This document shows positions 26,714-61,858 of a stretch of 64,000 nt of DNA, one piece after another (the first letter of the stretch is position 1; each line of letters begins with the position of its first letter). Under the pieces are notes generated by a model. It was not told the DNA's origin. It saw nothing but the letters and a program-made list of their open reading frames with translations, and ran no database searches. The translations under genes and the position numbers were made by a program. This DNA is from Agelas oroides. Taxonomy: Eukaryota > Porifera > Demospongiae > Agelasida > Agelasidae. The stretch covers positions 6,915,620-6,979,619 of the forward strand of contig OX422189.1 in the NCBI GenBank assembly GCA_949130485.1. The letters are read 5' to 3'.

Positions 26714-27045
26714 CTAGACGTATACATTTTGATTTGGGTAGGCAGTCATCTCATTTGCAGGAGCCTGGGATGGATAAGGGTACGATGGGGGAGGATATGC
26801 TACTTGAGGTTGAGCAGCAGATCTAGAAGAAGGGTAAGGCTGGAAGCCATCTTGTTGGGGGCTTGTTGTGACAACAGTTTCTGTGGTAGAAGCAGGTTGT
26901 ATGGTAGTTGCAACAGTTGTGCTTGGGTGCCTCGATGAAGCATGTGCTTTGCAGCAGGCGACAACAACACAGATGATGATGGGGAGAACTATAAAGAGTA
27001 CGATCCCTGCAATTGTTCCTCCCGCAACAGCCCCACCAATATTGC
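26714..27045 (-). CDS. gene B exon 7: transmembrane and tail
   Basis: Acceptor TGTATAG, phase 1. The span [20 protein letters not shown] continues [11 protein letters not shown], rich in small-xxx-small glycines. The tail runs [35 protein letters not shown] and ends NQNVYV. Confidence 0.85.
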
Positions 27046-30000
27046 CTATACAGAGGGACATGATAATTACACAAGTTAAATCTCATATTTACCCAAGAGG
27101 ATCCAGATTAGCCTAGTCTCCTTCCTATACATCATTCTTCTCAATCTTTTTTACATGCGCCCCAAAAAGCTAACAAAGAGCCAGGAATGAGAGTAGATCA
27201 GCTCAATCTATAGCTAGACTAGTAGTTCTATATTAACAACATACTTCACTGACATACTTACTGCTACTGCCAGTTGTAGGGCTGCTACAGCCAGTCTCAT
27301 CACTGCCATCAGTGCAGTCTAGATTCCCATCACAACGGTCAGAGGAGCTGATACACTGACCATTACTGCATCGAAATGCTCCACTCTGACAAGAAGCTGA
27401 ACATAATGTAACAAGGTAGCATTGAGATACCTGCAGCTACAGTGGGATGCATTGGGAAACATCTCCCAACACAAGCTGGTAGTTGTACCTGGACATCCAG
27501 TCTCATCACTTCCATCAGTGCAATCTCGTCTCCCATCACAGCGGCGAGAAGAAAAAATACACTGACGGTTGCTGCATCGAAATGCTCCACTTCGACAAAA
27601 AGCTGAACATAATGTAATAAGGTAGCATTGAGTTGCAGTGTCATCTAGTTATGACATAACATTGCTGCATCAAAATGCTCCATTTTGACAGGAAACTGTT
27701 CAAATTATATTATAAAGCAAGTAGTGATATAGTTACTGTACTAGCTTTATGTCACATCAGCTAGCAACAATCAAAATCGAAGGGAAACTCACAGCAGTTC
27801 CTCTCATCACTTCCATCAGAGCATGACCTAAATCCAGTGCATCGTGAGGAGGAGGAGACACACTGGCCATTGGTACATCTAAACTGACTGAAGCTGCAAC
27901 CTAGGAACAGTAATGCATTAGGAAAGACTGAGTGAGTATGCAAGTAGCCACAAGCAAATGAACTGGTTTATTTACACTCCACACCACATTCATATTTTGA
28001 CAGTTTGGTGGTTTTGGGGGTCCTCCATGTAACCACCCCTTATTCAGGATTGCATAACTGCATTCCACAGGTGGACTGTCCAACAGTGTAGTTACCACTA
28101 CCTATATAGCAGCAATTGCTTAGACGGAATCCAAGTATACATGAACCACAACATCCAATAGGTTTGCACGAATCTTTGACTCCATCTGCTTTATATCCTT
28201 TTCTTGTAACTGTTCCACTGTTGGAATTGCTATACAAACCTGTCAGCACTACCCTAGTCTACCAGTTGTATTTCCACTTTAGTATTTTGCTTGCCCATGT
28301 CCACTGTGGCAATTTGAGAATGCATGCAGGATCGACAATGGCACTTCAGTGTTGGGGTGCTCACCCCCAATTTTTCACACTTGAGCTATGGGAGCCATTC
28401 ATGTATCAGTACAGTATGTACAATTGTGTAGTAAAAATATGGACACGGCAACAACCTTGGTCTTCAAACATAGCACTATAACCACAGTATGTATTCTCAT
28501 CCCCACTTCCTAAATACTTCAGTAGCTTACCACAACCAGTTTCATCACTTCCATCAAAGCAATTTCTATTCCCATCACAGCGGTTGGAGGAGCTGATACA
28601 ATGACCAATGCTGCATCGAAATGCTCCACTTTGACAGGAAACTGTGGACAAATGTAGCGAACAATCTTCAGATATAGCTGACAACAGTTGTTATGCTACA
28701 GGAGTTGACAACTGTAAACAAAAAATGGAAAACTCACAGCAGTTCCTCTCATCACTTCCATCAGAGCAATTCCTGATCCCATTGCATCGAAAAGAGGAGG
28801 AGATACACTGGCCATTGCTACATCGAAACTGATTGAAGCTACAACCTATATAAGTACAGCATACATTTGGCAAGAGAGAATATCACGCATGAAGATACAA
28901 AAATATAAATTGGTTAGTATTCCCCCACCATAACATGAGCCTCACACTAGTTCCACACTGGTACTGCCTATCTGTAGTGACAACCTGAATGAAACTGGGA
29001 GTGAAGTTGAAGGATGCATGGCAACTTCTTGTTTCTGTAAGCCCAAGGTGTGTTGCTCAAAATGCATAGCGTTTTAGGTAAGGGCATAAATGATGCTCAT
29101 ACATGGCAGCTTATGTGAAGCTTGCCAGTGTAGCTATGTGTAGTAGCTTCTCTGGCTCGACAAATGGCTGCATTGTTGTCCTGTGTGGTCACCTACCTTT
29201 ACTGCTTATACCTTACTATGACGTTTAGCTACTCACTCAGTCTCACACTATATGATGATGAAACATCTGTCTAGCTGTGTGTATGTAGCATGTTACATGC
29301 AAGGCCGGAAAGTACAGTGTATGCATAGACATAGGGAACCGGGGGATGGGGGGTGCGGCGAGTGTGAAGCGCGAGGTGCAGAAGCTCAGATTTTTAACAT
29401 GCGCCAGACCTGACAGTCATAACTACAGTATGCATACCCCTAAGCAGCTCATAATCCCTGTCACTCCAATTTGTCTGCAACCAGGGTAATGATTAAACCA
29501 CTGGGTGATCCACAAACAACTACATAACTATGGTCCAGGATAGTTCGAGCAAGTGATCAAGTTTTGTAGCACATAATTATTAGTGTCACAAATCATGGCC
29601 AACGGAAGCAAGTTAAGAGTGGTCAGGCCATTCACACATAGCATGCCAACTGAAAAAATAATAATAACACTTCCAGCTTGAAGGTTCCTGTGCACCCTTT
29701 TGCATGCAAGTCCACAATCTTTTAAGACAACGGCTAATCTACCTGAATTGAATTGCAATCGCTGAAAACAGGAGGGGCCTGTGCCCCCTAACCCTAACCC
29801 CCCCCCCCCCCCTTAAAATCGCCAGTGCTTTGCAGAATGCAGAAATAGGCCAGGCCTGGAAAGACGCAAGGTACATGGAGACTGAAGATTGCTAAGTCAC
29901 ATACTGAATTTTCTGTATATAGCTATATGTTAATCACTCGAGAATACATTGCCAAGTATCATGTGGTAGGAGTGTTTGGACAATTGGACTCCACAATCAC

Positions 30001-31953
30001 TTTCTGTATGCAATAGGTTTAACAAAATTCACTAGCAATCTGGTACATTCACTACAATTCTAGTGTTTGTGTTAGATCTTGGTTCTTGGTGATGCACAAT
30101 AGAGTTATGAAGGGAAGGAATAGGTCCTCACCAAAACTGGAGTAAGGCCACAGCAGGGAAATATCCTGTTTCTCATCAACCGCCCTCACAGACTTCCTGA
30201 TATTTCCACTTCTGAAGACACAATACAAGTAATAGTTGTACCATGGGCTTCTAGGGTGTATGGGATTTGTACCCTGAGTGCAGTTTTATGTATTCCCGAG
30301 GGCAAAGCCCGAGGGAATACATAAAACTGCACGAAGGGTACAACCCATACACCCGCAGAAGCCCATGGTACAGCCGACATATACCACTTCCGCACTAAAT
30401 ACTGTTATAGAAGCCTTTGGAAAACACAGTAGAAACTTGGCAGTTGTGTTTTGTTAATTTTGCACCCGCCCGCACTGATTTTCAGTCATTTCCAGGATGA
30501 GAAACAGAATATTTCCCTGCGCCTAATCTGTTGTGTAAGTTCACCCTGAGCATCACCTTACTGTGGAGTATAACACTTACTGTACTACCATGCAACAAAC
30601 GCAGCCTTTAGTTCAACCAAGATCAATCATTTATTTTCATGGTCTCCGTCCTCCTGTATACGGCGCATTTTATGCTCTGTGGTCAACAACTGCATGGAGC
30701 ATCTTATTCATGAGTGATGTCCAGGATATTAATCACAAGTTGCGCGACATGGTTAAGATTGCCAATTGCTTATTTGTCTCCTTTCCCAGTGCTGGTCCGC
30801 TTGCTCAGACTTACTGTCTCCACCTCTATTAAGCACAGTGGTCTCTTTCCTCTTCTGACCTTCATCACATTGAGGTTAATTGCTTTCAACAAGATTCTTA
30901 GAAGGATTTGGCACTTACCCAGTCAAAGTCATACTGGAATAGTACACTGTGTGGCAAATCTGGAGAGTCTATACAACCTTGTCTACCATTATATAGTTCT
31001 CTGCTGTCTGTGGCTCTTAAGTGTCCCTCTATCCTTGTTTGTACAATCTTCTGTCATTCCTCTGGCACCTCTTATTCTTTCTATGGCTATATAGCCCTCC
31101 CACTGTACTGCACTGCAAGCAACAAAAATTGAAGGTGGACGCGGGGGTCTGGGCTGAATCAGGCTAAATGGTAGCTATGCCTCTACTATCTACTATACTT
31201 GCTGGCAACAAACTTACGATCTTCTCAGGCTGCATACAACGTATGGCACAACTCCGCAAGTAGAGTTAGTATATTTCGAGAGCTGAACAGTCATAATATT
31301 CTAATAATGTACGTAGTACTGTGGTTTGTAGCAAACATTTAGGTAACCAAGTGTCAACTCCATAGGTGCATGACAGAATTAAAGTTGTCACAACCAGTGC
31401 TCAAAGTATGTGGGGGTTGACAGGGGTTGAACCCTCTCAGTCACTGCTATGAACCTCCCACTTGCTTTCTTCAGGCAATCCCTGGGGTGCCGGGGGCTGG
31501 GCAAATTAATCTCTCCAGCACCGTCCAGACTTGGTTCTAGTAGACTTGTTGTGTAGTTGGCTAGTAATATAACAAACCTAGATATTACAGACTACAGAAA
31601 ACTAACATACACTAACAAGCATCTACACACACTGCATGCTATGCCTTTGACATGTCCTCAGTCAAGTCAGGTTTAAGTAATGATCAATCGAGAGTATAAG
31701 TGTGCTACGCGTGTTGGCGGCGCGCGCCCACCGCGCTAGCGCTATTGCGAGACGCGAAATTTCCAGCCAAACCCCTGCTCCATTATTTCTTTTTTTTCTC
31801 TGATTCGAGCACTGGTCACTACCCTGCCATTTTATGGTCGCTCGTGTAAAAAATACCAGTATATTGTATGATGTACTACGTACCGCTGGTTCTGTGGATC
31901 ACTGCTATGACCACCAAGACCATCCGGAATTGATGAACAGCCGCGGACTCCAT
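26714..31953 (-). CDS. gene B: LDLa-repeat membrane protein with PPxY tail
   Basis: The exon join 31953-31884, 28845-28738, 28641-28531, 27900-27793, 27602-27489, 27396-27262, 27045-26714 is 978 bp, open, about 325 aa. Order: signal peptide, five LDLa modules (B, A, B, A, A; six cysteines and DGSDE each), a Ser/Thr linker (SSPTTGSSS), one membrane span, then a cytoplasmic tail. LDLa modules bind Ca2+ and protein or lipoprotein ligands outside the cell; this ligand is unknown. The juxtamembrane ACC could be acylated. The tail has PPPSY, a WW-domain ligand. Intron 1 (about 3 kb) holds a hAT-like MITE, a reverse-transcriptase relic and a hairpin. Boundaries are by eye; an extra exon at 28102-28239 is possible. 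Confidence 0.75.
27262..27396 (-). CDS. gene B exon 6: LDLa (type A) with linker
   Basis: 135 bp, phase 1-1, TTCAG acceptor, GTAAGT donor. [30 protein letters not shown], then SSPTTGSSS leading to the membrane. Confidence 0.85.
27489..27602 (-). CDS. gene B exon 5: LDLa (type A)
   Basis: 114 bp, phase 1-1, TTCAG acceptor, GTACAA donor. [32 protein letters not shown]. Confidence 0.85.
27656..27695 (-). pseudogene. truncated LDLa exon
   Basis: Begins SCQNGAF with an in-frame TGA for the next Arg codon and ends after about 40 bp. A relic between exons 4 and 5. Confidence 0.65.
27793..27900 (-). CDS. gene B exon 4: LDLa (type B)
   Basis: 108 bp, acceptor CCTAG, donor [36 protein letters not shown]. 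Close to gene C exon 39624-39731. Confidence 0.87.
28102..28239 (-). CDS. possible cysteine-rich exon of gene B
   Basis: 138 bp, open, phase 1-1, between acceptor GCTGACAG and donor GTAGTGG, so inclusion would keep frame and add 46 aa. It reads [20 protein letters not shown] then [14 protein letters not shown] recognise no known domain. Related blocks sit at the same place in the decayed unit (14880-15020) and gene C (40360-40470), both damaged. It could equally be a duplicated intron. Confidence 0.35.
28531..28641 (-). CDS. gene B exon 3: LDLa (type A)
   Basis: 111 bp, CACAG acceptor, GTAAGC donor. [31 protein letters not shown]. Confidence 0.87.
28738..28845 (-). CDS. gene B exon 2: LDLa (type B)
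   Basis: 108 bp, TATAG acceptor, GTGAGT donor. [30 protein letters not shown]. It joins the signal exon in phase. Confidence 0.85.
28846..30236. other. gene B intron 1, distal part; segmental duplicate
   Basis: 29460-29760 matches 45760-46250 in order (AATTTGTCTGCAACCA, GCAAGTGATCAAGTT, GAATTGAATTG). A poly-C run lies at about 29798-29812. No exon is visible. Confidence 0.55.
30237..30372. repeat. foldback MITE, ~60-bp arms
   Basis: Ends TGTACCATGGGCTTCT and AGAAGCCCATGGTACA. The inner arms TATTCCCGAGGG and CCCGAGGGAATA pair around a short loop; the outer pairing has a few mismatches. Confidence 0.85.
30690..31094 (+). pseudogene. non-LTR reverse-transcriptase C-terminal relic
   Basis: Pieces align with the C-terminal part of the ORF2 at 928-3864: [17 protein letters not shown] against DIVFKSRDLLKKANLLF, then [20 protein letters not shown] against [20 protein letters not shown]. 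Frameshifts break it up. It lies in gene B intron 1, antisense to the gene. Confidence 0.8.
31395..31814. mobile_element. 420-bp hAT-like MITE
   Basis: Ends CAGTGCTCAAAG and CGAGCACTG. The flanks GTCACAAC and GTCACTAC agree at 7 of 8 bases, as for hAT. The paralogous introns of C (46.68 kb) and D (61.73 kb) lack it. Confidence 0.8.
31884..31953 (-). CDS. gene B exon 1: signal peptide
   Basis: 70 bp with donor GTACGTAG. Begins [20 protein letters not shown]. The hydrophobic core is shorter than in the paralogs ([15 protein letters not shown] in D), so secretion efficiency is less certain. Confidence 0.75.
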
Positions 31954-32090
31954 TCTCGGATCCTTCTACTATATAATTATAAACGAGCCAGATTACAGCG
32001 CGAAGACAGCAGGCGACATCAATAGTGACCCGGCCGTAATCATCGACAAATCATTTCCTGTTTGGACTCCACTGTGTATGAACTGTGGTA
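31954..32090 (-). promoter_or_regulatory. gene B 5' flank, conserved among paralogs
   Basis: On the minus strand GTCGCCTGCTGTCTTCGCGC and ATCTGGCTCG lie upstream of the ATG. Close matches are upstream of C (49422-49455) and weaker ones upstream of D (61870-61905). TTTATAATTATATAG is a possible TATA region. The strand of action is inferred from the gene. Confidence 0.45.
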
Positions 32091-37282: not shown

Positions 37283-37324
37283 TTAACCCTCGGCGCGCAT
37301 GCGCAGCGAGGGTTACAGTACTTC

Positions 37325-38738: not shown

Positions 38739-39232
38739 CTAAGCTTGTTGAGGTGGGTAAGCTGGGTATGCAACCCGGGGTGGGTTAGGGTATGGTGGGG
38801 GAGGGTACGCTTCTTGAGGTTGGGCTGGGTATGCTCCTTGAGGTTGGGCTGGGTATGCTCCTTGAGGTGGGGGAGGTTGTGGTGGGTAGGAAAGCTGAGG
38901 TTGTGGTGGGTAGGCAAGCTGAGGTTGTGGTGGGTAGGCAGCCATCTCATATGCAGGAGCCTGGGGTGGGTAAGGGTACGGTGGGGGAGGATATGCTTCT
39001 TTCGGCTGAGGAGCAGAAGGGTAAGGCTGGAAGCCACCTTGTTGGGGGCTTGTTGTGACAACAGTTTCTGTGGTGGAAGCAGGTTGTATGGTAGTTGCAA
39101 CAGTTGTGCTTGGGTGCCTGGATGAAGCATGTGCTTTGCAGCAGGCGACAACAACACAGATGATGATGGGGAGAACTATAAAGAGTACGATCCCTGCAAT
39201 TGTTCCTCCTGCAATAATCCCACCAATGTTGC
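38739..39232 (-). CDS. gene C exon 12: transmembrane and PPxY tail
   Basis: Acceptor TGTATAG, phase 1, 494 bp. Span [20 protein letters not shown] then IICVVVACC. Tail [24 protein letters not shown], repeats of AYPPQPQL and [21 protein letters not shown], ending YPPQQA. The first 75 codons are nearly identical to gene B; the repeats are extra. Confidence 0.9.
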
Positions 39233-40966: not shown

Positions 40967-41006
<40 letters not shown>

Positions 41007-47000: not shown

Positions 47001-49397
47001 ACTGTAAACAAGACTAGCAATTTTTACAGTAGTCTCGAGGCCACAATCACACAGAGAATAATTCAAATTCCAATGGGTATTTCATGAAGAGGAGCTAGCT
47101 GACTAGTCCATGCTCAGACCAACAGGATCTGGGTACTACTAAGTGCTAACATGATTGGGTCACATGCTGAAAGGCAACTGCACATTACCAAATGCAGAGA
47201 TGGAAATTTCGCCTGTACATACTATCTTCCCATGATAGTTTGGTTCTGTTCTGCAACATTGATCTTTGTCTCACAGCCAATTCTAGAAGAGATTGATGCT
47301 GCTGAATGGAATGAATCTTGATTATGGGACTAACATGGCATTTACTTACCCTGTCAGGTTTGCACTTGAGCAGTTCGTGAATGTGATTTTGTAGACACTG
47401 ATTCCTGTATGCATTGGTAAAGGAATTTTAACTCACCACCCCTTCAGCCAGAAGCTGAATTCTGAAGTGTGTAACTATAAAACTTTGAAGAAATCATTGA
47501 GAACAGTTTGGGAGGCTGGTTACACTTAACGATAATTATACAGAATACGAAAAACCAAGTGAGAGAGTGAGCTCCGGAAATCAATTATGGATGACCCAGT
47601 CCGGTATACTCAGATTATGAGAGCGTGCTATTTCAAGATCCTGGCAATTATATCCAGCAGGTGAATGTTACTAGCAGGTCCGTGATAACACTTAGCTGTT
47701 AATATATACATTTGGTGTCAGTAGTCAGTTTGTGGCTCTGTGTGCCACCAGTGTCTGCGTGAAATGGGGACATCCCAATTTGGGAACCCTGGTCCCCATA
47801 TCCCTAGCGATATGGGGACAGGGGGCCCCATATCACTAGGGATATGGGGCCCTGGGGTCCCCAGAACTCTGGTGATATGGGGATCCTTCAGGGATTTAGG
47901 GATCCCCAAGTTGTATATATGCAAGAGTAAAAATATGAAAGAGAATGTGCTGAGGATCATCCCCCATGGCCAAATGAAGCGTGAACGCTATCGCCAACAG
48001 TCCACAGCCACAGCTTCCAAACTGCTGTTGGACAGTGGGGACATTGATCTCCAGCATTAGATCACCATCTTAGTCTGTTTGTAAAGGTCTGTAAATTATT
48101 CTCCTCCTCTCCTCCGCACTTTCGACCACCAAGCGAGGTTTCTCACTCCCTTTTCCGCCTATGTAGTATAAACGTCCTCCGTCAGCTTTGAAGAACTTGC
48201 TACGCTTCCTTAGCCCATGCTGAGTTTATCAGCATGAGATGGGTATGTCTTGTGAACAACGTATAGTACAGGGGTGGCGGAGCAGGGGGGGCAGGGGGGG
48301 CGAATGCCCCCCCAATCCAAAGATGGCTACTGCTACTTGATGTGTAATAATATACAACAGTTACTATCAAAATGCCAGTGTCAACGATGCGTCGTTTACT
48401 TACCGTACGGTATCCAGCACAAACCATCGTCGTAGTTAGTCTCGCGTAGCCGCGAGACTAGGTCGTAGTAGGTTTTCCTGTGGGTGTGACTGGATAAGTT
48501 TATTTACTTTTAATTAGACAAACACGTGCACTGCCACTGCACTGCCCCCCCTTCAAGCTGTTAGGCGTGGTGATCACTGAACTAGTTTCAGAGTGTAGTA
48601 CAAAGTAAAAACTGTTGTAAGTTGTCCAGGTCGTCAATTCATCTATAAGATGCCCACCTCATCAGGCCCGCCATGTACGGTCGACTATAGTGACTGAAAC
48701 GCCTCGTGACGACTGACGTGTATTGTGGCGAATGGAGGTATTACTCTCGCCATGTACTCTAGTCGGACTAGTGGCATTTGGGTACAAATATGGCCTCAGA
48801 AGTGATCTCAGAGCACCTAATTAAAAAAAAATTTTCTGGGGGGGCATGCCCCCAGACCCCCCTAGCGTGTGCGTGCTTAGGCACACACCATCCTCGCTGC
48901 CCACCCCAATCTCAAATACCTTCCGCCGCCCCTGTAGTAATAAATTTTGCTGAAGGTATATTTTGCTTTTGCCACATCTTCCTCAACTTTCACGTCTTTT
49001 CACCTTCCTTCGCCATGCTAACAACTTTAGGTGTTATGCTCTGCTTCTCGTTTTATAACACCCATGGCATACCCTTCTGATCAATGGACGTCAAGGTCCA
49101 GCGCCCGATGTTTACGAACAGGTAGGTCTGTGTCTTCCGGGGTCCCCAAACGCTGAGGGGATCCCCATATCGCACTTACCGGCACCGGATCGGTGGCAAT
49201 AGCCATTTAGTGGCTATTATTACCACTGATTTATCTCGTGTAAAAATATGCTAAAAACCGCAGTTAGCCTGGTTTCCATTCCTGGGTACGAGGCTAAACC
49301 GCAGTAGATATTGTAGGATGTAGTGCGTACCACTGGTTCCGTGTATCACTGCTATGACCACCAAGAACGTCAAATGACCAACAGCCACGGACCTCAT
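38739..49397 (-). CDS. gene C: ten-repeat LDLa membrane protein with PPxY tail
   Basis: Exon join 49397-49331, 44214-44104, 44015-43902, 43628-43521, 43435-43322, 42784-42674, 42588-42478, 40882-40772, 40686-40576, 39731-39624, 39556-39425, 39232-38739: 1692 bp, open, about 563 aa. A signal peptide is followed by five pairs of type B (CSSTQF…DERNC) and type A (SCQSGAF…DETGC) LDLa modules, a Ser/Thr linker, one span, a CC motif and a ~125-aa Pro/Tyr/Gln-rich tail with two PPPPY motifs. It is probably a cell-surface Ca2+-dependent binding protein whose tail engages WW-domain proteins; that role is inferred. No broken exon was found. Intron 1 is about 5.1 kb. Confidence 0.82.
39425..39556 (-). 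CDS. gene C exon 11: LDLa (type A) with linker
   Basis: 132 bp, GTACAG acceptor, GTAAGT donor. [31 protein letters not shown], then SSTTGSSS. Confidence 0.88.
39624..39731 (-). CDS. gene C exon 10: LDLa (type B)
   Basis: 108 bp, CCTAG acceptor, GTGAGT donor. [30 protein letters not shown]. Confidence 0.88.
40360..40470 (-). pseudogene. degenerate cysteine-rich block
   Basis: Open for a short way ([20 protein letters not shown]) after a possible TATAG acceptor, but no GT donor in phase. Homologous to 28102-28239. Confidence 0.45.
40576..40686 (-). CDS. gene C exon 9: LDLa (type A)
   Basis: 111 bp, GTACAG acceptor, GTAAGC donor. [31 protein letters not shown]. Confidence 0.88.
40772..40882 (-). 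CDS. gene C exon 8: LDLa (type B)
   Basis: 111 bp, ATTAG acceptor, GTACGT donor. [23 protein letters not shown] with one extra residue, DGSDERNC. Confidence 0.87.
40967..41006. repeat. (CA)n(TA)n microsatellite
   Basis: An alternating CA run followed by a TA run inside gene C intron 7. Confidence 0.9.
41010..42470. other. gene C intron 7, no other gene recognised
   Basis: 1.6-kb intron between two LDLa pairs. Open frames at 41224-41750 match nothing I know. There is a poly-A run near 42380. Confidence 0.4.
42478..42588 (-). CDS. gene C exon 7: LDLa (type A)
   Basis: 111 bp, GTACAG acceptor, GTAAGC donor. [31 protein letters not shown]. Confidence 0.88.
42674..42784 (-). CDS. gene C exon 6: LDLa (type B)
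   Basis: 111 bp, CCTAG acceptor, GTAAGT donor. [13 protein letters not shown], one extra Ser before [17 protein letters not shown]. Confidence 0.88.
43322..43435 (-). CDS. gene C exon 5: LDLa (type A)
   Basis: 114 bp, TTGCAG acceptor, GTAAGC donor. [32 protein letters not shown]. Confidence 0.88.
43521..43628 (-). CDS. gene C exon 4: LDLa (type B)
   Basis: 108 bp, CCTAG acceptor, GTAAGT donor. [30 protein letters not shown]. This exon and its flanks are nearly identical to exon 6, a recent pair duplication. Confidence 0.88.
43902..44015 (-). CDS. gene C exon 3: LDLa (type A)
   Basis: 114 bp, GTACAG acceptor, GTAAGC donor. [23 protein letters not shown], then DDSDETGCG with Asp in place of the usual Gly. 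Confidence 0.87.
44104..44214 (-). CDS. gene C exon 2: first LDLa (type B)
   Basis: 111 bp, ATGCAG acceptor, GTGAGT donor. [32 protein letters not shown]. The GQC start marks the first module, as in gene D and the decayed unit. Confidence 0.87.
44215..44813. other. gene C intron 1, first part
   Basis: No gene recognised. A small hairpin (CAACACTTCAGTT / AACTGAAGTGTTG) lies at about 44332-44380. Confidence 0.4.
44814..45503. mobile_element. TTAACCCTC element, second copy
   Basis: Starts TTAACCCTCAGCGCACATGC, GCAGCGAGGGTTAC and a (TG)n run, and ends near GCACCGAGGGTT. Both ends match 37283-38185 with changes; the interior differs. Confidence 0.6.
45504..47739. other. gene C intron 1, segmental duplicate of gene B intron 1
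   Basis: 45760-46250 and 46420-46700 match 29460-29760 and 31100-31390; the second part also matches 61560-61740 (CTTCTCAGG, TTTGT(A/T)GCAAACATT). No exon is visible. A near-palindrome around ATGGCTATTGCCA is at about 46724-46760, with a relative at 49185-49225. Confidence 0.55.
47757..47890. repeat. GGGG(A/T)CCCC / CCCATATC palindromic repeats
   Basis: Several copies of CCCATATCNCTAG(C/G)GATATGGGG and its complement occur in alternating orientation. Related sequence lies at 49138-49170. Confidence 0.75.
48269..48934. mobile_element. 666-bp hAT-like element, nested micro-insertion
   Basis: Ends CAGGGGTGGCGGA and TTCCGCCGCCCCTG, flanked by TAGTA on both sides (5 bp). There is no transposase. 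Classification as hAT rests on the CAGGGG end only. Confidence 0.7.
48437..48460. mobile_element. 24-bp palindromic insertion, TAGTCTCG type
   Basis: TAGTCTCGCG and CGCGAGACTA around a 4-base centre. The flanks CGTCGTAGT and GGTCGTAGT agree at 8 of 9. It looks like a MITE reduced to its termini. Confidence 0.75.
49265..49296. mobile_element. 32-bp insertion, TAGCCTGG…CGAGGCTA
   Basis: Exact 9-bp flanking duplication AACCGCAGT (49256-49264, 49297-49305). It lies just downstream of the gene C signal-peptide exon, in intron 1. Confidence 0.85.
49331..49397 (-). CDS. gene C exon 1: signal peptide
   Basis: 67 bp with donor [26 protein letters not shown]. Preceded by CGATCCAAGA, shared with the other signal exons. 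Confidence 0.82.
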
Positions 49398-49800
49398 TCT
49401 TGGATCGTTCAACTAACGAGCCAGATCAGAGTACGAAGACAGTAGGCGACACAGCGTACATTACATCACTTTGTGACTCGGCTCCAAAGTATAATCATTG
49501 CCAAGTTATTTCCTGTTTGGAATTTAAAGCAGGCAGTGTGACTCCACTGTGTTTAATGATGCAGACAAGAGCTATGAACTGTGGCAACAAGGTCAAAACA
49601 AAGTTTAATGAAGCAATTTCCAAAAGCAGTGTGTAATGGTTCGCTAATTGGCTACGTAAGCAGCAGTACTAGTGTTGCTCATTGGGTGAGGTGTGTAGGT
49701 ATGTATAAACAACAGCTGTAAAGTAGCATCATTACCTAACACAAATTTGTAATAGCTTGCAGAGAGTGGCAGCAGCTGTTCATTACCGTACAGATTCTAA
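49398..49800 (-). promoter_or_regulatory. gene C 5' flank, duplicated block
   Basis: Matches two places upstream of gene B (31985-32090, 32880-33490). The GTGTCGCCTACTGTCTTCG block and an AACAGGAA motif (possible ETS site) are conserved. The promoter role is inferred from position. Confidence 0.45.
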
Positions 49801-49814
49801 TCCAGTGGGAAGCA

Positions 49815-50957
49815 TGGCTTCAAAGTTTAGGGCATGGTGGTGGAGGATATGCATGCTTTTTGAGTTGGGGGAGGCTATGTGGACTGTGATGGAGGAGGGT
49901 ATGTGGCCTGTGATGGAGGAGGGTATGTGGCCTGTGATGGAGGAGGCTATGTGGACTGTGATGGAAGAGGGTATGTAGCCTGTGATGGAGGAGGGTATGT
50001 AGCCTGTGATGGAGGAAGGTATGTAGCCTGTGATGGAGGAGGGTATGTGGCCTGCGATGGAGGCGGCCTGAGATGGGGCAGGATATGCAGCCTGGGATGG
50101 GGCAGGATATGTGACCCGGTGTGGAGGAGGATATGTAGCCTGGGAAGGAGGAGGGCATGCAGGCAGGTGTGGGTGAGGGTGGGCTAGATTGGGAGGAGGG
50201 TAAGTAGCCCGTGTAGGGGAGGGTGTGTGTCCCAGGATGGATTGGGAGGAGGGTAAGTAGCCCGTGTAGGGGAGGGTGTGTGTCCCAGGATGGATTGGGA
50301 GGTGGGTAAGTAGCCCGTGTAGGGGAGGGTGTGTGTCCCGAGATGGATCAGGAGGAGGGTGTGTGTCCCGGGATGGATTGGGAGGAGGGCATGTAGCCTG
50401 TGATGGAGGCGGCCTGAGATGGGGCAGGATATGCGGCCTGAGATGGGGCAGGATATGCAGCCTGGGATGGGGCAGGATATGTGACCCGGTGTGGAGGAGG
50501 ATATGTAGCCTGGGATGGAGGAGGGCATGCAGGCAGGTGTGGGTGAGGGTGGGCTAGATTGGGAGGTGGGTAAGTAGCCTGGTGTAGGGGAGGGTGTGTG
50601 TCCCGAGATGGATCAGGAGGAGGGTAAGTAGCCTGGTGTAGGGGAGGGTGTGTGTCCCGGGATGGATTGGGAGGAGGGTAAGTATAGCCTGGTGTAGGGA
50701 AGGGTGTGTGTCCCGGGATGGATTGGGAGGAGGGTAAGTAGCCTGGGATGGGAAAGTATATGCAGCCTGGGATGGAGGAGGGTAAGCTGCCTTGGATGGT
50801 GGAGGGTATACAGCCTGGTGTGGAGAAGTGTATGCAGTCTGGGGTGGTGGAGTGTATGCTTCTTGAGGTGGTGGAGCAGATGTGTTTGCCTGAAAACCAC
50901 CTTGATGTGGGCATGCTTTCATGGCAGTGGCGGTAGTGATAGGAGCAGGTTGAGACT
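49815..50957 (-). pseudogene. orphan proline-rich tail of an LDLa-family gene
   Basis: Begins mid-exon with QPAPITTATAMKACPHQGGF, matching [19 protein letters not shown] of gene C, then EAYTPPPQTAYTSPHQAVYP and many SQAAYP(A/P)P units. Frames change along the array (50700, 50560, 50340). The membrane span and acceptor are missing. Repeat units of about 15, 48 and 69 bp have expanded to over 1 kb. Confidence 0.75.
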
Positions 50958-51940: not shown

Positions 51941-52103
51941 GAAGAGAAAGTTATCTGGTACCAACTTTAGCTCGGAAAATACGTTGCCGATGTTTCGACT
52001 GAATGCTCCAGTCGTCATCAGTCACCCTGATGACGACTGGAGCATTCAGTCGAAACGTCGGCAACTTATTTACCGAGCTAAAGTTGGTACCGGATAACTT
52101 TCT
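51941..52103. repeat. foldback element, ~78-bp arms, ~5-base loop
   Basis: Arms GAGAAAGTTATC(T/C)GGTACC … GACTGAATGCTCCAGTCGTC and complement, with few mismatches. No open frame. Confidence 0.92.
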
Positions 52104-52839: not shown

Positions 52840-53186
52840 CTATGAAGCATTGGAATGTATCTCGATACTGCTAGCATATGCCGCATTCACATCAGTGGTG
52901 ATGGTATCCATGTGTGAGGGCAGTTGTGGGGAGCTAACAACTCCATGTTCAAGTTTGGAGCTTGGAGGCAGCTGTGGGCGTTCCAGAGTTTCATATACGT
53001 CTACAGGAATTGTTGGCTTTTTTTTCTTTCCTAAGATGTGAATACGCAACACAATTATCACTACTATCGCAACCGGAACTGATACTATGAGAAGAAATCC
53101 AAGTGGCAATCCCACAGAAAGCTGGATCACTGTTGCTTCAGTATTTTGTCCAATGTTTGGTGAGGGTGAGGGTGACGGATCTGTCA
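52840..53186 (-). CDS. gene D exon 8: transmembrane and cytoplasmic tail
   Basis: 347 bp, acceptor TACCCAG, phase 1. [12 protein letters not shown] stalk, span [20 protein letters not shown] then AIVVIIVL, stop-transfer KKKK, tail ending SIEIHSNAS. Confidence 0.8.
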
Positions 53187-56100
53187 CTGGGTACAGGTAC
53201 ATGTAAGTGGGGAAATATGGAGGAGGGAGTAAATTTAAAACTACCACTATAGGACCAAACCATATACCATGGAAAGGGTTTGACAATTTGCCCATGTGTA
53301 GAGCTGATCACTAACCGTACAGCATTTGCAAGTAATCTGTAGCTATAGATGTAAACGACACCAGCGACAGTCCCCATGATGTCCGCATTAGCCGGAGGGG
53401 ATCCACTATAGGCCCATATGCACAACTTGAAGTAACCTTGCATAGGAGGCATGCGAGCGTCTGCATTATTGAGTGAAATTTGTCTGGTCCAGGTACGAGT
53501 GGGACCAAAAACCCTGTCCAATTTACTGGGTGTCCGCATTTCAGGGATTATAATGTATGTCTGCAGCTGATTGTACGATGTGTCCGCATTTCAGAGGTTC
53601 GGAATAGCAAGGTTCCACTGTATTTGTTTACATCCAATTGGATGTAAACTGAAACAATAGGCAAATTATATAAATGTTGACAGAAAGGGTTACTACAATT
53701 AATGGCAAAGCTGAAAGATTTAGTTGTTACCTTTAGCTGACACAACACTGTCTGGTCCTGGTGGTACAGGTGGCTCAGAGGAGGCAGGTTGTTGAAATGT
53801 GATGTTAGAAGTCACAGTTGGCGTAACTGAAACAATTTAAGATACAGTTCTAGATCTGTTACAGGATGATCTCTCCTACTACATATTGACTGACATGCAT
53901 GTACATGGTTGCTACATGTACTACAGAAGATGACAGATTTTGGTGTAAGCTGTCCCAAAGTAAATCTGGTTACACAAACCTATATACTTGTGGCAGACTA
54001 GCTCACAGACAACAATTGGTGACAGAGTTGCCTCAAGTAAGCCAGCACTTAAATCTGCAAAAGCTAGTGACCTAGATACCATGATATGTCTGGATGGCAG
54101 TTTTCACTTAGACAATGTGTGAATCTAGTCTACCTGCTGTACTATACTTCAACCATGTAAGCTCCTTTGCAGGAAAATGCTGCATACTGCATCCTCTGGT
54201 AAGGTTTGTCCAAAGACAAATGTGTGTATGAGTGCCAGCTCCAGCTCATCCCTATAGCCTTGTTCCTAGGCTGTTTCTCTCCTCCCACATGGCTTGGGAA
54301 CGAGGCTAGCTCATTTCTACAATGTCTTGCATTCATCTTCTACAGTATGTTACGCATTAAAGGCCAGAGTGTTTAGTTTACAGGGTAATGTGTACACATG
54401 CAGTTCTAATCCATCCAGCCAGTGTGTTAGTTAACACATTGGATGGATATTCTAGTAACTTCTTAACTCTCTATAAAGCCCTAAGTAACTTGGGCATGCA
54501 ACCTACAGAAGCTATAGCAACTGACCACACAGCTATTATCAATGACCACAATCATAAAGCGTCTAGTATAGTTATAACAGCACTGCTACCTTACATGTAG
54601 TTTTCGGTTACAACACCAATTATCCATGGTATATATTCCCATCCTCCACCTCCTGCATACTTTGCAGTCAGATACCATGTAATCATGCACCGTATATATA
54701 TTTCCATGCCTACCCCAAACTGTTTGGTCACTTATACCACATCCGGTCTCATCACTGCCATCCGTGCAATCTTGTCTCCCATCACAGCGGCGAGAGGTGA
54801 GGATGCACTGACCATTGCTGCATCGAAATGCTCCACTCTGGCAAGAAGCTATATGCAAATTGTAAGTATTATAGTGTTAAGATACATAACTATCTAGCCT
54901 CATTCCCAGGGCTGAAATTAAGGCTATTAGGTATCACGGTACCTACAACAATTATGCTAGTATGCGATATTTGATGAGTGTACATGCAAATATAAACTTA
55001 TTGCAGCTACTCTGATTTGAAATCCACCATTTGACATACTATATTGAAACTGAGCTGCAATTGCAATCTACATATATAGGTGCAACGTACAAGCTGTGGG
55101 ATGTATATATAACTGTGCATTTTGCATGCAAGGCCAGAGTGTTCAGTTGACAAGCAGGGTTGCATGTGTTAGTTTGTAATCCATCCAGCCGATGTGTTGA
55201 TTGTTGACTATACATAAATAGTCTGATAAAGCCATACGTAGCTACGTGGGATACAACTCATCTGTCTACAAAAGGTGATTTAATTTGCATGGCAATGATC
55301 ACAACTGTGCACTTAGTAATAGTGTGCAGTGGCTTAAGCCTGTAATGGCACAACAACCACCTTGGCATTTGAGTATTATAACCACAGTATGATCCCCCAC
55401 CCTCTAAAGAGTTTGGTAGCTTACTACATCCAGTTTCATCACTGCCATCAGTGCAGCCTCGAAGTCCATCACACGGCCTGACACATTGAAGATTGCTGCA
55501 CCGAAATGCTCCACTTTGACAGGAAACTAAAGTATGCAAATTGAAACAATTAAGCGGGTAGTAATACCTGTTTTGCACAGGAGTTAACAACTATGAGAAA
55601 CGTACTGCAGGTTCTCTCATCACTTCCATCAGTGCATCCCATAAAACCATTGCATCGTAAGGAGTTTGAAATACAAAACCCATTTGTACATTGAAACTGG
55701 GTGGAGCTGCAACTTGAGCCTACAGGTGTAACAATGTGTGGAGCAAAACTGAATAAATAGTATGCAAGCAGCTATGTAGTGAGACGACTGATTGTATGGA
55801 CGTTCTACTGTGCCATTCATGTCACCATATGCCCTTACTGGAAATGCTGAACGTATAATGCTAGCTATATACATGTGGATGAATACACACAAGGTGCAAT
55901 GAATGCATACTTTTAGTAGCCTCGTTCCCAGGCTCTCCCCTCGCCCCGACGAAAAATAAAAACTACCCGTTTTTATTTTTCGGCGGGGCGAGGGGAGAGC
56001 CTGGGAGCGAGGCTATACTTTTAGCTGAAGAGATCACAGCTAAAAACCATCCCTCAACATGTGAAGCCATAGAGATACTCTCAATCATGTGATGACAGTT

Positions 56101-59100
56101 TGACTGCTGTACAGTGCTTGTTGTCCACTCCAACAATTTAGACTGCATAGTATTTTCCCCAAACACATTACAAAATGATCTATATTAAACAATATGGGTT
56201 TCTTGCTTATGCCTTTTGTGGCAATGTTTCACATTGAATGTACATAAATGACGCCCGATAGAAGCAGCAAGGTTACATAACTGAAGAGTAATTGAAGGGT
56301 TAGGAACCAGAATGGTCTGGTGTAGCTAGGAACTTGCGGCACATGTATTTTCCATACATTCATTGACTTTGCACGGCTCTGTGAGCCTTTAATACGACGA
56401 AAACCTTCGTGACCCTGTCACCACACCCACAAACCTTTGGTGTCTTCGTGCCGGACCACACCCAAAAGTCTTCAGCGACTGACTACATCATATACCCTCC
56501 AGGTAGGGTATATTATCTATGACCACACTGTGACCCTAGCCTCGTTCCCAGGCCTACCCCGTGTTTTGTTCTTTGGTTTGCACACGGAGGCGGAAGAGCG
56601 CTCTTCCGCCTTGGTGCATTATATTGAACGCAAACCAAAGAACAAAAAATGGCGTAGGCCTGGGAACATATAGTTCCCCCAACAGGAAGTGTGTTTCAGA
56701 AACAAAGGGTAGGGTATAGGGTCGGGCAGGGATTTACTTCCGGTTTGTTTCAGAAACATTGCGGGGGAGGCTATAGGTCGCGGTACACTTATTTCTCCAA
56801 CTTATTTCTCCAACTTAGCTACTGTGCCCCATGCCCACACTGTGACCACACCGTGACCCCATGACCCCTTGCCCACACTGTAACCCCAGTCGTAGCCTCG
56901 TACCCAGGCCGTTCATTAAAAACGTTTCCCCTACGAACGGCCTGGGCTACCCCAGTCGCGGCTGTATATGGTGTTTATGGGCGTGACCACATTATTACAA
57001 GAGGTTTATTAACATCTCACGCATGTGCAGTGTGCCATGAAAGTCAACAATGGCAAAGATCGCGGAAGGAACAGACCCGGGACAAATTCTGGCAAAAGGT
57101 GAGTTCGGCTAAAGGTTAATCAAGCTTATCCACAAAATGTGCAGGCTCAATTTATGCAATGACTGCTATACTTAAATGTAGCTATGCTGGAGTTGTACAA
57201 ACTTGAGCTTGCATGCATGTTGCCAGTTCTCAAATTTCATATGGTACTTGCAATAGGATACCTGTGCATGCAATAATAAAATTTGTACTATGATATCCCA
57301 ATTCCATAATTTATATAGTAAGAACAAATTGTTCAATTATAACCATACTAGAAATTCCACAGGCAGTTCATTGACTCCTAGATGTCCAGGCACTTGTTTT
57401 GTTGTGTTAGCAACATAAGTCCCAATATTTTAGGATGGTATGCCTAATTGAATAATAAAAAATGAATTGCTTATTATACCATAGGCAGTTTACACTTATA
57501 ATTATATACATGTTCAGTTAATGTTCAATTGAAGTCCTTTAATCTTTAAATTTTTTTTACAGCTTACAACCACATTCAGTCTCATCGCTGTTATCAATCT
57601 GGCTCAACCCCTACACACTACTTTTGTAGCTGTAACCAACAGTATACATCACCATTATAACTATGGTATGGCCATGTATGCGCACTCTTTGGCTAAATGC
57701 GTTAGTACGCCAGAACATTGAGTATTGAAACATTGGTATGTATGTAATAAAGCTTACATCCAATTTCATCACTGCCATCAGTGCAGTCTCGGCTTCCATC
57801 ACAGCGGTCAGAAGACCAGACAGGGTAATGAACAAGTAGAATAGTATGCAAGTAGCTATGAAGTGAGATGACTGATTGTATGGATGTTCTACTGTGCCAT
57901 TTATGTCACCATATGCCCTTACTGGAAATGCTGAACGTATGTTAGCTATGATTATACATGTGGGTGAATACACACAAGGTGCAATGAATGCATACTTTTA
58001 GCTGAAGAGATCACAACTAAAAACCATCCCTCAACATGTGAAGCCATAGAGATACTCTCAATTACATGATGACAGTTTGACTGCTGTACAGTGCTTGTTG
58101 TCCTCCCCCCTACAACTTAGACTGCACAGTATTTCCCCAAACACATTGAAAAATGATCTATTAAACAATACGGGTTTCTTGCTTATGCCTTTCGTGGCAA
58201 TGTTTCACATTGAATGTACATAAATGACGCCTGATAGAAGCAGCAAGGTTACATAACTGAAGAGTAATTGAAGGGTTAGGAACCAGAATGGTCTGGTGTA
58301 GCTAGGAACTTGCGGCATGTGTATTTTCCATACGTTCTTTGACTCTGCACTGCTTTGTGACCCTTTAACACGACGAAAACCTTCATGACCCTGTGACCAC
58401 ACCCAAAAACCTTTGGTGTCTTCGTGCCGGATCACACCCAAAAGTCTTCGGTGACTGACCACACCATAGATAATATACCTTCCAGATTATCTGTGACCAC
58501 TCTGTGACCCTAGCCTCATTCCCATGCCTACCCCATTTTTTGTTCTTTGGTTTGCATACGGAGGCGAAAGAGCGCTCTTCCGCCTCCGTGTATTATACTG
58601 AACACAAACCGAAGAACAAAAAACGGGGTAGGCCTGGTAACGAGGCTACTGTGACCCCATGACCCCTTGCCCACACTGTGACCCCAGTCGTAGCTTCATA
58701 CCCAGGCCGTTTATTAAAAACGTTTCCCCTACGAACGGCCTGGGCTACCCCAGTCGCGGCTGTATATGGTGTTTATGGGCGTGACCACATTATTACAAGA
58801 GGTTTATTAACATCTCACGCATGCGCAGTGTGCCATGAAAGTCAACAATGGCAAAGATCGCAGAAGGAACAGACCCGGGACAAATTCTGGCAAAAGGTGA
58901 GTTCGGCTAAAGGTTAATCAAGCTTATCCACAAAATGTGCAGGCTCAATTTATGCAATGACTGCTATACTTAAATGTAGCTATGCTGGAGTTGTACAAAC
59001 TTGAGCTTGCATGCATGTTGCCAGTTCTCAAATTTCATATGGTACTTGCAGTAGGATACCTGTGCATGCAATGAATTTCCCAATAAAATTACTATGATAT

Positions 59101-61858
59101 GCCCAATTCCATATATAGTAAGAACACATTGTTCAATTATAACTATACTAGAAATTCCACAGGCAGTTCATTGACTCCTAGATGTCCAGGCACTTGTTTT
59201 GTTGTGTTAGCAACATAAGTCCCAATATTTTAGGATGGTATGCCTAATTGAATAATAAAAAATGAATTGCTTATTATACCATAGGCAGTTTACACTTATA
59301 ATTATATACATGTTCAGTTAATGTTCAATTGAAGTCCTTTAATCTTTAAAATTTTTTTACAGCTTACAACCACATTCAGTCTCATCGCTGTTATCAATCT
59401 GGCTCAACCCCTACACACTACTTTTGTAGCTGTAACCAACAGTATACATCACCTATTATAACTATGGTATGGCCATGTATGCGCACTCTTTGGCTAAATG
59501 CGTTAGTGCGCCAGAACGTTGAGTATTGAAACATTGGTATGTATGTAATAAAGCTTACATCCAATTTCATCACTGCCATCAGTGCAGTCTCGGCTCCCAT
59601 CACAGCGGTCAGAAGACCAGACACATTGAAAATTGTTGCATCGGAATGCTACACTTTGACAGGAAACTGTACAAATTATAGCAATGAAGAAATGAGCTAT
59701 ATCTACAGCAGTTGTATGTGTTACAGGAGTCAGCAACCGTCAAACTATATAGATCAGAAACTTACTACAGTTCCTCTCATCACTTCCATCAGAGCACGTC
59801 ATAATTCCATTGCAACGTAAGGAGGAGGGGACACACTGGCCACTGGTACAGCGGAACTGGGTGGAAGTGCACTGACCTGCACATATGTGAGCCAGAATCA
59901 AACATTTTGAAAGATGCAGTATGTGATCACAAAATTATGAATCTGACTGCTTATATTCGAGATATTGCACGATATCGTACGAACTCACCTATTTATACTG
60001 CACATATTTAGGGGTCCCAACAAAAAATCCAAGAACGAACGAACTTGACTCAAGTGTGCTGAAATCCAAGAACCAAGTGACCTTGTTTGTAAACTACAGT
60101 TACAATAGTTTCTATGACTTTCGTTCTTCCGAAAATAAATAAAGCGGACAGAGGGTTATGTGCCAAAATATGGCCATTATGGGATTTTTGATTTTATATG
60201 GGGGATTATATATGAACATACCTTTAACAGATATCCACGCGAGTGGTCCAGCTATTTTAATACTCTACCAATGGTAAATAATCAATTGCACTGGTGCTTG
60301 CTAAATTTACTTGTCAAAAGTCACTTCAAACTATCAATTATTCTTCTATGGGAGAAATGTATTGCAACATAAAATAACAGCTAATATAGTCTCTTGACAG
60401 CTATAAACTTGATTGGTCCAGGCATTTTTGCACAAGATACATCAAGTGAAATCCATCAGTACCACTAGTTTCATCGCGAAGCTTCAAAAGTCACTTGAAC
60501 CGAACTGCCCCCAATTTTTGGCACTTAACCCTTTCAAGTCCAAGACGAATTGACTGAAAATAGCTTTGCAGCACCAACTTTTATCGTCCGGTTTTTATAT
60601 GTCTCAGATAGATACTTAGTTCTAGTACAACAGATTTGAAATTAGAGCACCTTCGATTTTTTCGTTGGGAGCCCTAACATATTAAAGTAAATCAACCAGC
60701 GTACTTTATGGAAAGGATATCTCGAGAACTACTCAACGCACAAACACCAGACAAGTACCAGCATGTAGCCAAGAGCCTGTAGATTCTACTGATGCTAATA
60801 TACGGTGGAGACTTCAACTTGTTGTCAAAATAGGCATCTTATGCATTATTATAATTTCTAAATTTTAGCTGTTCGATTAGAGTACGTAAATTACCAAATA
60901 TTCCGAGAAACGGAGGATGTACGAAAAAAAAAGAGTTTTTGTACAAAGTGAATAGAAGAATACGCGTGTAATTTTTCGATACTGAGGAAACTGATCAGCA
61001 GGCCCGTTGGCAGGGGGGTTCGAGGGGTTCGCTAGAACCCCCCTTTTGGCCTCCAACAGATTTCATACACTGCCTAGCCCTACCATTTGCAAGTGGTCCA
61101 CTAGCCTCGCTTCCATTGAACATCACTGCATGGGATACTTTGCCCGGTTATGTAACCAATACAACGTCCCCTGCTAGTTTCAAAAATGCTTCTATGTTCA
61201 CACTTTCATAACTTTAACTTTAATATCAGCTTCGTTGTGTAATTTTGTTAGTTTGTGACTTTGTAATAAATTGGGGTACTTTTCACTTAGGTATGCTATC
61301 TTGTATCCCTTGCTTTTGTGCACAAACTTTCATAGAAAAAATCTTGCAAGTGCGTAGCAAATGGAGTGTATGCAAAGATATGGCGCGCTGCTAAGAATCG
61401 GTAAATGATTGAGGGATCGCCAGCGGGAGCCCAATGGCATCGTTCGTAGCCCCGATCAAACAACCTTACCTATCCTACCCTAGCGAAGTTTGCTATAGGG
61501 TAAGATCGAAATCACTAAGATATATACGGTCCGGATCGGATTTTTTGGGGGAATCGGATCCACTGTAATCTTCTCAGGCTGGTATAGTGCAACTCCGCGA
61601 GTTAGTATACGTATGACGAGTGTTGCTGAACATGCAGTTTCCTTACTAAGGTTATGTACTATAGTACTGCGGTTTGTAGCAAACATTAGGCAGCCGAGCG
61701 TCGCCCTTTTGTAGTTGACAGAATTAAAGGACTACTCTACCATTTCATGATCGCTAGGTATAAACATGAACGCTGAATACCTACGTACCACTGGTTCCGT
61801 GGATTCCTGCTATGACCACCAACAGCATCAGAAGACCTACAGCGACCAAGGACCTCAT
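52840..61858 (-). CDS. gene D: LDLa membrane protein with a different tail
   Basis: Exon join 61858-61789, 59876-59766, 59666-59559, 55719-55606, 55526-55425, 54848-54738, 53826-53731, 53186-52840: 1059 bp, open, about 352 aa. A signal peptide is followed by five LDLa modules (B, A, B, A, A), a Pro/Thr stalk, one membrane span and a ~75-aa tail. The N-terminal half is plainly family, but the stalk, span and tail are unrelated to B and C: the span ends [11 protein letters not shown] and the tail has [14 protein letters not shown], with a YxxL sorting-type motif and no PPxY. A 2-kb tandem duplication lies in the intron between LDLa 2 and 3. A YxxL tail suggests an endocytic receptor; this is inference. 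Confidence 0.75.
53731..53826 (-). CDS. gene D exon 7: Pro/Thr stalk
   Basis: 96 bp, phase 1-1, TTTCAG acceptor, GTAACA donor. [20 protein letters not shown] then PPGPDS; it has one N-glycosylation sequon (NIT). Confidence 0.65.
54255..54308. mobile_element. 54-bp palindromic MITE, TAGCCTTG type
   Basis: TAGCCTTGTTCCTAGGC and GCTTGGGAACGAGGCTA. The flanks GCTCATCCC and GCTCATTTC are similar but offset by two bases on the left. It lies in a gene D intron. Confidence 0.75.
54738..54848 (-). CDS. gene D exon 6: LDLa (type A)
   Basis: 111 bp, ATATAG acceptor, GTATAAG donor. [31 protein letters not shown]. Confidence 0.85.
55425..55526 (-). CDS. gene D exon 5: shortened LDLa (type A)
   Basis: 102 bp, TTTAG acceptor, GTAAGC donor. 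[20 protein letters not shown]: three residues (SDR) are missing between cysteines 3 and 4, an in-frame deletion that may strain the fold. Confidence 0.8.
55606..55719 (-). CDS. gene D exon 4: LDLa (type B)
   Basis: 114 bp, TGTAG acceptor, GTACGT donor. [32 protein letters not shown]. Its first two bases (GC) complete a Cys codon with exon 3. Confidence 0.83.
55917..56015. mobile_element. 99-bp palindromic MITE, TAGCCTCG type
   Basis: Arms TAGCCTCGTTCCCAGGCTCT and complement over about 45 bp. Exact 9-bp duplication TACTTTTAG (55908-55916, 56016-56024). Unit 2 has a single TACTTTTAG at about 57994-58002, and the inverted copy at 5.78 kb is also empty. Confidence 0.95.
56537..56672. mobile_element. 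MITE, unit 1 copy with damaged right end
   Basis: Starts TAGCCTCGTTCCCAGGCC after CTGTGACCC. The inner arms around GGCGGAAGAGCGCTCTTCC are intact. The right terminus and second duplication are lost, unlike the unit 2 copy at 58511. Confidence 0.85.
56893..56949. mobile_element. 57-bp palindromic MITE, unit 1 copy
   Basis: TAGCCTCGTACCCAGGCCGT to ACGGCCTGGGCTA, with exact duplication CCCCAGTCG on both sides. Confidence 0.9.
57758..57823 (-). pseudogene. half LDLa exon at a duplication breakpoint
   Basis: The 3' half matches exon 59559-59666 ([16 protein letters not shown], donor GTAAGC). The 5' half is replaced at about 57823 by sequence matching 55740 onward, marking the junction of the two tandem units. 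Confidence 0.85.
58511..58648. mobile_element. 138-bp palindromic MITE, unit 2 copy
   Basis: TAGCCTCATTCCCATGCC to GGCCTGGTAACGAGGCTA, with exact duplication CTGTGACCC (58502-58510, 58649-58657). Confidence 0.92.
58691..58747. mobile_element. 57-bp palindromic MITE, unit 2 copy
   Basis: TAGCTTCATACCCAGGCCGT to ACGGCCTGGGCTA, with exact duplication CCCCAGTCG (58682-58690, 58748-58756). Confidence 0.9.
59559..59666 (-). CDS. gene D exon 3: LDLa (type A), shifted donor
   Basis: 108 bp, GTACAG acceptor. [30 protein letters not shown], then donor GTAAGC starts after GGAT, so the sixth Cys codon is split as T|GC and restored only by a suitable next exon. Confidence 0.8.
59766..59876 (-). CDS. gene D exon 2: first LDLa (type B)
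   Basis: 111 bp, GTGCAG acceptor, GTAAGT donor. [32 protein letters not shown]. Confidence 0.86.
59877..61788. other. gene D intron 1
   Basis: No exon recognised. 60866-60980 is a dispersed repeat (GATTAGAGTACGTAAAT, ATTCCGAGAAACGGAGG) with a second copy at 61938-62053. 61560-61760 matches intron 1 of genes B and C. Confidence 0.5.
61789..61858 (-). CDS. gene D exon 1: signal peptide
   Basis: 70 bp with donor [26 protein letters not shown] then IHGTSG, a strong secretion signal. The ATG is preceded by CTATCCAAGT. Confidence 0.83.

Follow-up and report, generated by a model that had tools for sequence, protein, structure and literature searches.

An expanding family of LDLa membrane receptor genes in the demosponge Agelas oroides, with a probable exchange of tails between receptor families

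Introduction

What kind of receptor is encoded by a row of LDLa genes in the demosponge Agelas oroides, and why does one of these genes end in a tail unlike that of its neighbours? The genes lie in a stretch of 64,000 nucleotides on contig OX422189.1 (the window, C7:6915620-6979619, contigs being numbered here with a C), and we read three of them, g1, g2 and g3, together with 244 kb of C7, window included, and with the whole 259 Mb assembly of 141 contigs. A first-pass annotation of the same DNA had described a tandem family of LDLa membrane receptors in which both modules and whole genes are gained and lost. Our analysis supports this description, which stops short in three respects: the family extends over several contigs, its LDLa modules are of two kinds, and g3 is probably a chimera that carries the tail of another receptor family. 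The locus holds a real, expanding receptor family, and the exchange of tails is its most telling part.

Results

Three genes joined from signal peptide to tail

All three minus-strand genes can be joined from signal peptide to tail, as the first-pass annotation had proposed, with zero base changes; the 23 introns are all GT-AG and every boundary is in phase 1. The models are as follows (TM, transmembrane segment; HMM, hidden Markov model).

31953..26714, minus strand: g1, 978 bp, 325 aa; signal peptide, five LDLa modules (A-B-A-B-B), TM, tail with PPSY. Exons 31953-31884, 28845-28738, 28641-28531, 27900-27793, 27602-27489, 27396-27262, 27045-26714.
49397..38739, minus strand: g2, 1686 bp, 561 aa; signal peptide, ten LDLa modules (five A-B dyads, by the LDLa HMM), TM, tail with two PPPY. 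Exons 49397-49331, 44214-44104, 44015-43905, 43628-43521, 43435-43325, 42784-42674, 42588-42478, 40882-40772, 40686-40576, 39731-39624, 39556-39425, 39232-38739.
61858..52840, minus strand: g3, 957 bp, 318 aa; signal peptide, five LDLa modules (A-B-A-B-B), TM and tail without PPxY. Exons 61858-61789, 59876-59766, 59666-59559, 55719-55606, 55526-55425, 54848-54738, 53180-52840.

The layout is the same in each case: one signal-peptide exon, LDLa exons of a single module, and one exon holding both TM and tail, signal peptides and TM being assigned from hydrophobicity alone. All join lengths divide by 3, as had been claimed, and the 978 bp of g1 is exact; the 1692 bp and 1059 bp given earlier for g2 and g3 were not reproduced. 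The splice sites were compared with controls. A phase-1 AG lies at most 8 bases upstream in 20/20 LDLa exons and in none of the 20 for either of the other two phases, and an in-phase GT stands at +1 or +4 in 18 of the 20; acceptor and donor occur together in 18/20, against 1.9% of 20,000 random positions. Out-of-phase GT at +2 or +5 is also present in nine of these exons. Two donors are exceptional: the last module of g1 has its GT at +25, and the g3 exon at 59557 has a GT inside the codon of its last Cys, which the next exon completes.

Pfam, applied to the g1 and g3 proteins (2 of the 3 gene models), finds five LDLa modules in g1 (E 7.6e-52) and five in g3 (E 6.7e-49), and over the same LDLa residues of g3 also LDLRAD1_C (30.1 bits, cut-off 29.2) and, below its cut-off, a PRKCSH-like match. 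EGF, YWTD, CUB and known adhesion domains were not found by Pfam in either protein. Over the 244 kb of C7 there are six signal-peptide exons of the g1-g3 kind, including four within the window and the three that served as queries, and the LDLa module HMM marks 58 stretches in the 244 kb, fragments included, 31 of which are in the window.

Two kinds of LDLa module in ordered dyads

The modules alternate between two types, A (CSSTQFRC...DERNC) and B (SCQSGAFRC...DETGC), with a B-B pair at the end of g1 and g3. The same A-then-B order recurs in exon pairs from C1, C2, C6 and C12, though not without exception: C6, for instance, also has B-B and A-A pairs. A tree built on 80 exons of C7, C1, C2, C6 and C12 separates A and B at one branch (95/95), and when the stretch before the second Cys, from which the labels derive, was removed, the tree held 2 label changes against a shuffled mean of 26.6; both trees have few columns and the bootstrap is not settled. 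The trees took 80 of 87 exons, excluding one unclassed exon and six whose matched stretch lacked six Cys, and the replacement-rate test was parsed alike. The split in the tree, together with the A-B order on several chromosomes, suggests that the dyad is probably older than its spread over the chromosomes.

The two types differ at positions which, from LDLR structures, we take to be the calcium site and the ligand-clamp Trp. In the 86 of 94 stretches that were parsed (eight without six Cys were left out), the first calcium-site Asp is absent from 37/43 A modules and present in 39/41 B modules, the second is absent from 42/43 A and present in 33/41 B, and the last Asp-Glu of the site is kept in all 86. 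Lacking two Asp, the A modules are probably not normal calcium binders. The clamp Trp occurs in 1/86. That single module, a canonical one with Trp and both Asp, lies next to a PPxY tail at C1:23279880-23283370 (L032, L003) and is perhaps near the ancestral form.

The module counts bear on the idea that these are nutrient or lipoprotein receptors of the LDLR type, which we consider distinctly improbable. The LDLa modules themselves would fit, and the best solved relatives are LRP2, VLDLR and LDLR (g1 only), but the EGF and YWTD domains are missing from g1 and g3, the Trp clamp is all but gone, the A modules lack two calcium residues, and NPxY is absent from the three tails in the g1-g3 sequences.

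On C7 the pooled w of 15 A exons is 0.32 and that of 17 B exons 0.30, which shows that the LDLa exons are held by selection. The five most variable B positions on C7, of which three surround the clamp and the loop that precedes the fifth Cys, were considered as candidates for positive selection and this was rejected: pN/pS is 1.61 at these positions, which were chosen on C7 after the fact, and 1.01 on C6 (14 exons) and 0.94 on C1 (six exons), groups with fewer than four exons being skipped. The five positions vary freely, but we claim no positive selection.

PPxY motifs in the tails and their candidate partners

With the g1 tail exon as query, 31 places (18 with E <=0.001) were recovered on C7, C1, C6 and C15 at an E limit of 10; a second tail query gave 28 rows at E 0.001 and added four places on C15. 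PPxY was counted in 24 of the 26 tails listed, two relics being left out, g3 and a relic tail (r1) included, and L037 and L038 being weak kin (E 0.001 to 0.003). The motif is present in 20/24 tails, with 30 occurrences where shuffling these tails gives 10.2; for PPxYE the corresponding figures are 13 and 0.32. Within the window, g1 has one PPxY, g2 two and g3 none. Matches to WW and HECT domains stand in one row on one strand at three places in the genome (C23:4.823-4.830, C13:9.219-9.223 and C16:0.037-0.042 Mb), and these putative WW/HECT genes are candidate partners of the PPxY tails.

The tail of g3 is kin to tails of Ig-domain receptors

The three genes had been taken as one family, and as far as the LDLa ectodomain is concerned this stands; the g3 tail, by contrast, is of a different kind from those of g1 and g2. 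Two features are needed here.

52840..53180, minus strand: TM/tail exon of g3, kin of Ig-domain receptor tails on C15 and C4, by tail search and acceptor comparison.
49783..50955, minus strand: remnant of a cytoplasmic tail of the PPxY type, lacking TM and probably once the tail of g3; E 2.3e-8 to the g2 tail, of biased composition, with no match to the tail HMM.

The g3 tail exon has its five best kin at C15:1.61-1.65 Mb and C4:5.023 Mb, with E 5.6e-20 to 3.1e-8 and 45-60% identity, and the reverse search recovers it. These kin exons (L084-L088) are preceded by Ig-like exons in all five loci read, and the two pieces put to Pfam both match Ig models. At the DNA level the kinship covers 52810-53121, starting 59 bases within the exon and ending 30 beyond the stop, and g3 has the identical phase-1 acceptor CAGTGACAG to three of its five kin (L085, L086 and L088). 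The YETL of the g3 tail corresponds to YEVM, YEVS, YEIM, YEIV or YDIV in the kin. This Ig-domain family has tyrosine-bearing tails, with YEVM, DYAVV and AYASS. In the simplest story, which the sequence kinship makes probable, g3 has lost its original tail and ends in that of an Ig receptor, and is therefore a chimera. The interval from the g3 tail to the tail relic includes a near-palindrome of 171 bases (91%; 51939-52109), possibly a small inverted-repeat element.

The exon at 53180-52840 could instead belong to a separate or dead gene of the Ig type, the LDLa exons above it being a broken gene without a tail of its own. The former PPxY-type tail is indeed broken, an intron of 1.56 kb precedes the tail exon, and the g3 tail is weakly constrained (w 0.61-0.71 against four kin and 1.08 against one). 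On the other side, the five kin Ig exons have no match in the 244 kb of C7 (tblastn at E 1, and a profile of the five), and none of the best 150 of 1692 Ig_3 candidates genome-wide falls there. The tail exon also retains its acceptor, its phase 1 and a 105-codon open frame at a synonymous divergence (dS) of ~0.3-0.5, and the signal-peptide exon and five LDLa exons of g3 are open. We therefore regard this alternative as rather unlikely, and a chimeric g3 as probable. Among the same best 150 Ig_3 candidates are ~20 near-equal Ig exons in tandem on one strand, ~1.5 kb apart, at C4:7171229-7198444.

A PPxY tail behind SRCR exons

Five PPxY tail places lie at C15:1.886-1.926 Mb, and no LDLa on C15 is among the matches listed. 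In the one locus of this group read upstream (L089, C15:1917000-1925500), the 8.5 kb before the PPxY tail contain SRCR half-domain exons on the same strand, all three pieces being SRCR by Pfam, and no LDLa. The last SRCR exon has a candidate phase-1 donor 0.9 kb before the phase-1 acceptor of the tail. Taken together with the kinship between g3 and the Ig receptors, this means that two tails serve three ectodomains in the loci read.

The SRCR locus also bears on the view that these proteins are adhesion molecules, in which alternating calcium-bound and calcium-free LDLa modules would act as cell-cell or cell-matrix linkers, the variable residues would serve self-recognition and the PPxY tails would set surface lifetime. 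Ordered dyads and a changing number of repeats (five or ten modules) would suit such linkers, as would the rarity of the ligand-clamp Trp. This view nevertheless seems unlikely to us, since g1 and g3 have no known adhesion domain and a kin tail stands behind SRCR exons. SRCR is a domain found in known uptake and recognition receptors.

Turnover of the locus and its relics

Remains of further copies had been reported at 9.9-10.4, 11-18.9 and 49.8-51 kb, and LDLa, signal-peptide and tail remains are indeed found there, the last being the tail relic described above. The others, with two further exon remnants, are listed here.

9904..10422, minus strand: relic made up of a signal-peptide exon (10422-10354) with a single LDLa exon (9904-10014); a tail was not found.
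10990..18872, minus strand: remains of two or more gene copies, with LDLa fragments at 15505-18872 that have lost Cys and one in-frame TGA, a tail at 17155-17547 and a decayed tail at 11562-11708.
57756..57821, minus strand: part of an LDLa (B) exon in duplicated g3 intron sequence, by module HMM and repeat comparison.
5964..6071, plus strand: orphan LDLa (A) exon related to the g3 A exon; its block recurs in inverted orientation 68 kb away.

Gain and loss of modules and of whole genes are documented at several scales. In long matches, g2 dyads agree at 79-90%; within g3, ~1.8-2 kb has been duplicated in tandem (56850-57822 against 58648-59623, 96.6%), copying part of an LDLa exon; a dyad unit of 0.75 kb is repeated at 84.5% in a gene ~36 kb past the window end; and the relic-bearing block at 12780-21537 has a 98.8% copy over 8.8 kb, ~33 kb away on C7. 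That the whole locus consists of tandem pseudogenes without expression is very improbable. Several copies are plainly dead (those at 15.5-18.9 kb and at 9.9 kb), but three full-length models are open and the LDLa exons have w ~0.3.

The region of the orphan exon is 87% alike to 55542-55916 and has a 98% copy at C7:6989432-6990030. It adjoins a MULE-type transposase frame (6548-7831, plus strand; Pfam MULE and ALS2CR8), and the two share a block of ~20 kb whose inverted copy lies at 72-89 kb in window coordinates, in pieces 86-98% alike. A transposon carrying LDLa exons was considered and rejected: the LDLa part has one near-identical copy and g3-like kin only, and the adjacent 170 bases recur without LDLa at four places on C10, C3 and C1. 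An insertion beside a relic and an inverted duplication account for the position of the orphan exon near the MULE frame.

Other features of the window and the genome

A 53-base unit is present in 28 copies (98% matches) at 20041-21527, where three plus-strand frames are open over long stretches, and a second array lies upstream, within the duplicated relic block. A LINE-type element at 928-4748 (minus strand) has endonuclease and reverse-transcriptase frames, recognised by eye. Elsewhere in the genome there are 15 matches to silicatein, two of which were read: that at C4:288397 has ASYAFS (Ser type), and that at C14:8552927 has a Cys, as cathepsins do. A silicatein in which Ser replaces the catalytic Cys is a demosponge hallmark, and the C4 exon marks the genome accordingly.

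Discussion

The best explanation of the locus, which we hold with middling confidence, is a family of single-pass receptors expanded in this demosponge lineage, LRAD3-like receptors that would serve recognition or uptake, recruit Nedd4-type E3 ligases and carry exchangeable tail exons. In this model, the genes would be expressed. Their signal peptide and TM make the products cell-surface proteins, a step well supported by sequence. The LDLa chain, mostly of A-B dyads in which B keeps the calcium-site residues and A does not, may bind a ligand outside the cell. A PPxY tail would recruit a WW-HECT ligase of the Nedd4 type and lead to ubiquitin-driven uptake or down-regulation after ligand binding, as is reported of LRAD3, and g3 would send a tyrosine-based signal instead. 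The locus grows via tandem copying of dyads and of whole genes. Its phase-1 boundaries would make the tail exons able to move, which fits the LDLa ectodomain and tyrosine-bearing Ig-receptor tail of g3 and the PPxY tail behind SRCR exons on C15. That tails are shared with SRCR and Ig receptors points more to recognition or scavenging than to nutrition, and an immune or scavenging role may be proposed.

Several results weigh against this explanation. Four of the 24 tails are without PPxY (L027, L030, h2 and g3), and in others the count is near or below that of the shuffles (L031, 1 vs 1.05; L035, 1 vs 0.79; L038, 1 vs 1.48; L040, 1 vs 0.73; g2, 2 vs 1.10), a low excess that is due to the richness of PPxY tails in Pro and Tyr. 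In two of the five kin of the g3 tail (L084 and L087) a phase-1 acceptor in open frame was not found, and to these must be added the weak constraint on the g3 tail, the rejection of positive selection on B modules and the fact that the SRCR link comes from one of the five PPxY places on C15. One scan of prokaryote genome contigs found no relatives. As to earlier descriptions, no such LDLa family is named in the limited set of literature looked through, and this absence holds for that set only.

A bolder version of the same explanation is possible rather than probable. It sees a combinatorial receptor system in which LDLa-dyad, SRCR and Ig ectodomains would draw on two exchangeable phase-1 TM/tail exons, one a PPxY tail that recruits E3 ligases and the other a tyrosine-bearing signalling tail, such that one recognition surface could be given two outputs; g3 would then be a rewired gene, with its discarded PPxY tail 2 kb downstream. 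If true, an LDLa-dyad family whose inner tails are held in common with SRCR and Ig receptors would suggest a very early origin, within animals, of tail swapping between immune-type receptors. SRCR and NLR are among the large receptor families already described from sponges.

Comparison with known systems

The core family of LDLR, VLDLR and LRP2 is likewise built on LDLa modules and differs in its EGF/YWTD part, absent from g1 and g3, and in the Trp clamp, absent from 85 of the 86 modules here. PMEPA1 and LDLRAD4 are membrane proteins whose PPxY motifs bind Nedd4-type ligases; they are not known to have more than one LDLa or to form a tandem family. LRP10, LRP3 and LRP12 also have LDLa modules, and differ from g1 and g3, in which no CUB was found, by carrying CUB domains (PMC5331069); the tail of LRP10 is described as proline-rich with PPxY (PMC11315911).

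LDLRAD3 (LRAD3) resembles our genes in being a single-pass protein with one TM and an ectodomain of LDLa only, as Pfam gives for g1 and g3; its tail has two PPxY motifs, against one in g1, two in g2 and none in g3. We know of no A-B dyads in LDLRAD3. The mammalian LRAD3 has three LDLa modules as its whole ectodomain and two PPxY motifs that activate Itch and Nedd4, as reported earlier (PMC5331069; PMC11315911), compared with five, ten and five modules here, in a family of many loci. In layout the family is close to LRAD3, and it is not a member by module number. The SRCR superfamily of Amphimedon queenslandica, in which 158 of 296 genes stand in tandem arrays and units of two domains have been copied (PMC10855680), has an SRCR rather than an LDLa ectodomain and, in the passages considered, no mention of a shared PPxY tail; in its mode of growth it is a close parallel to the family described here.

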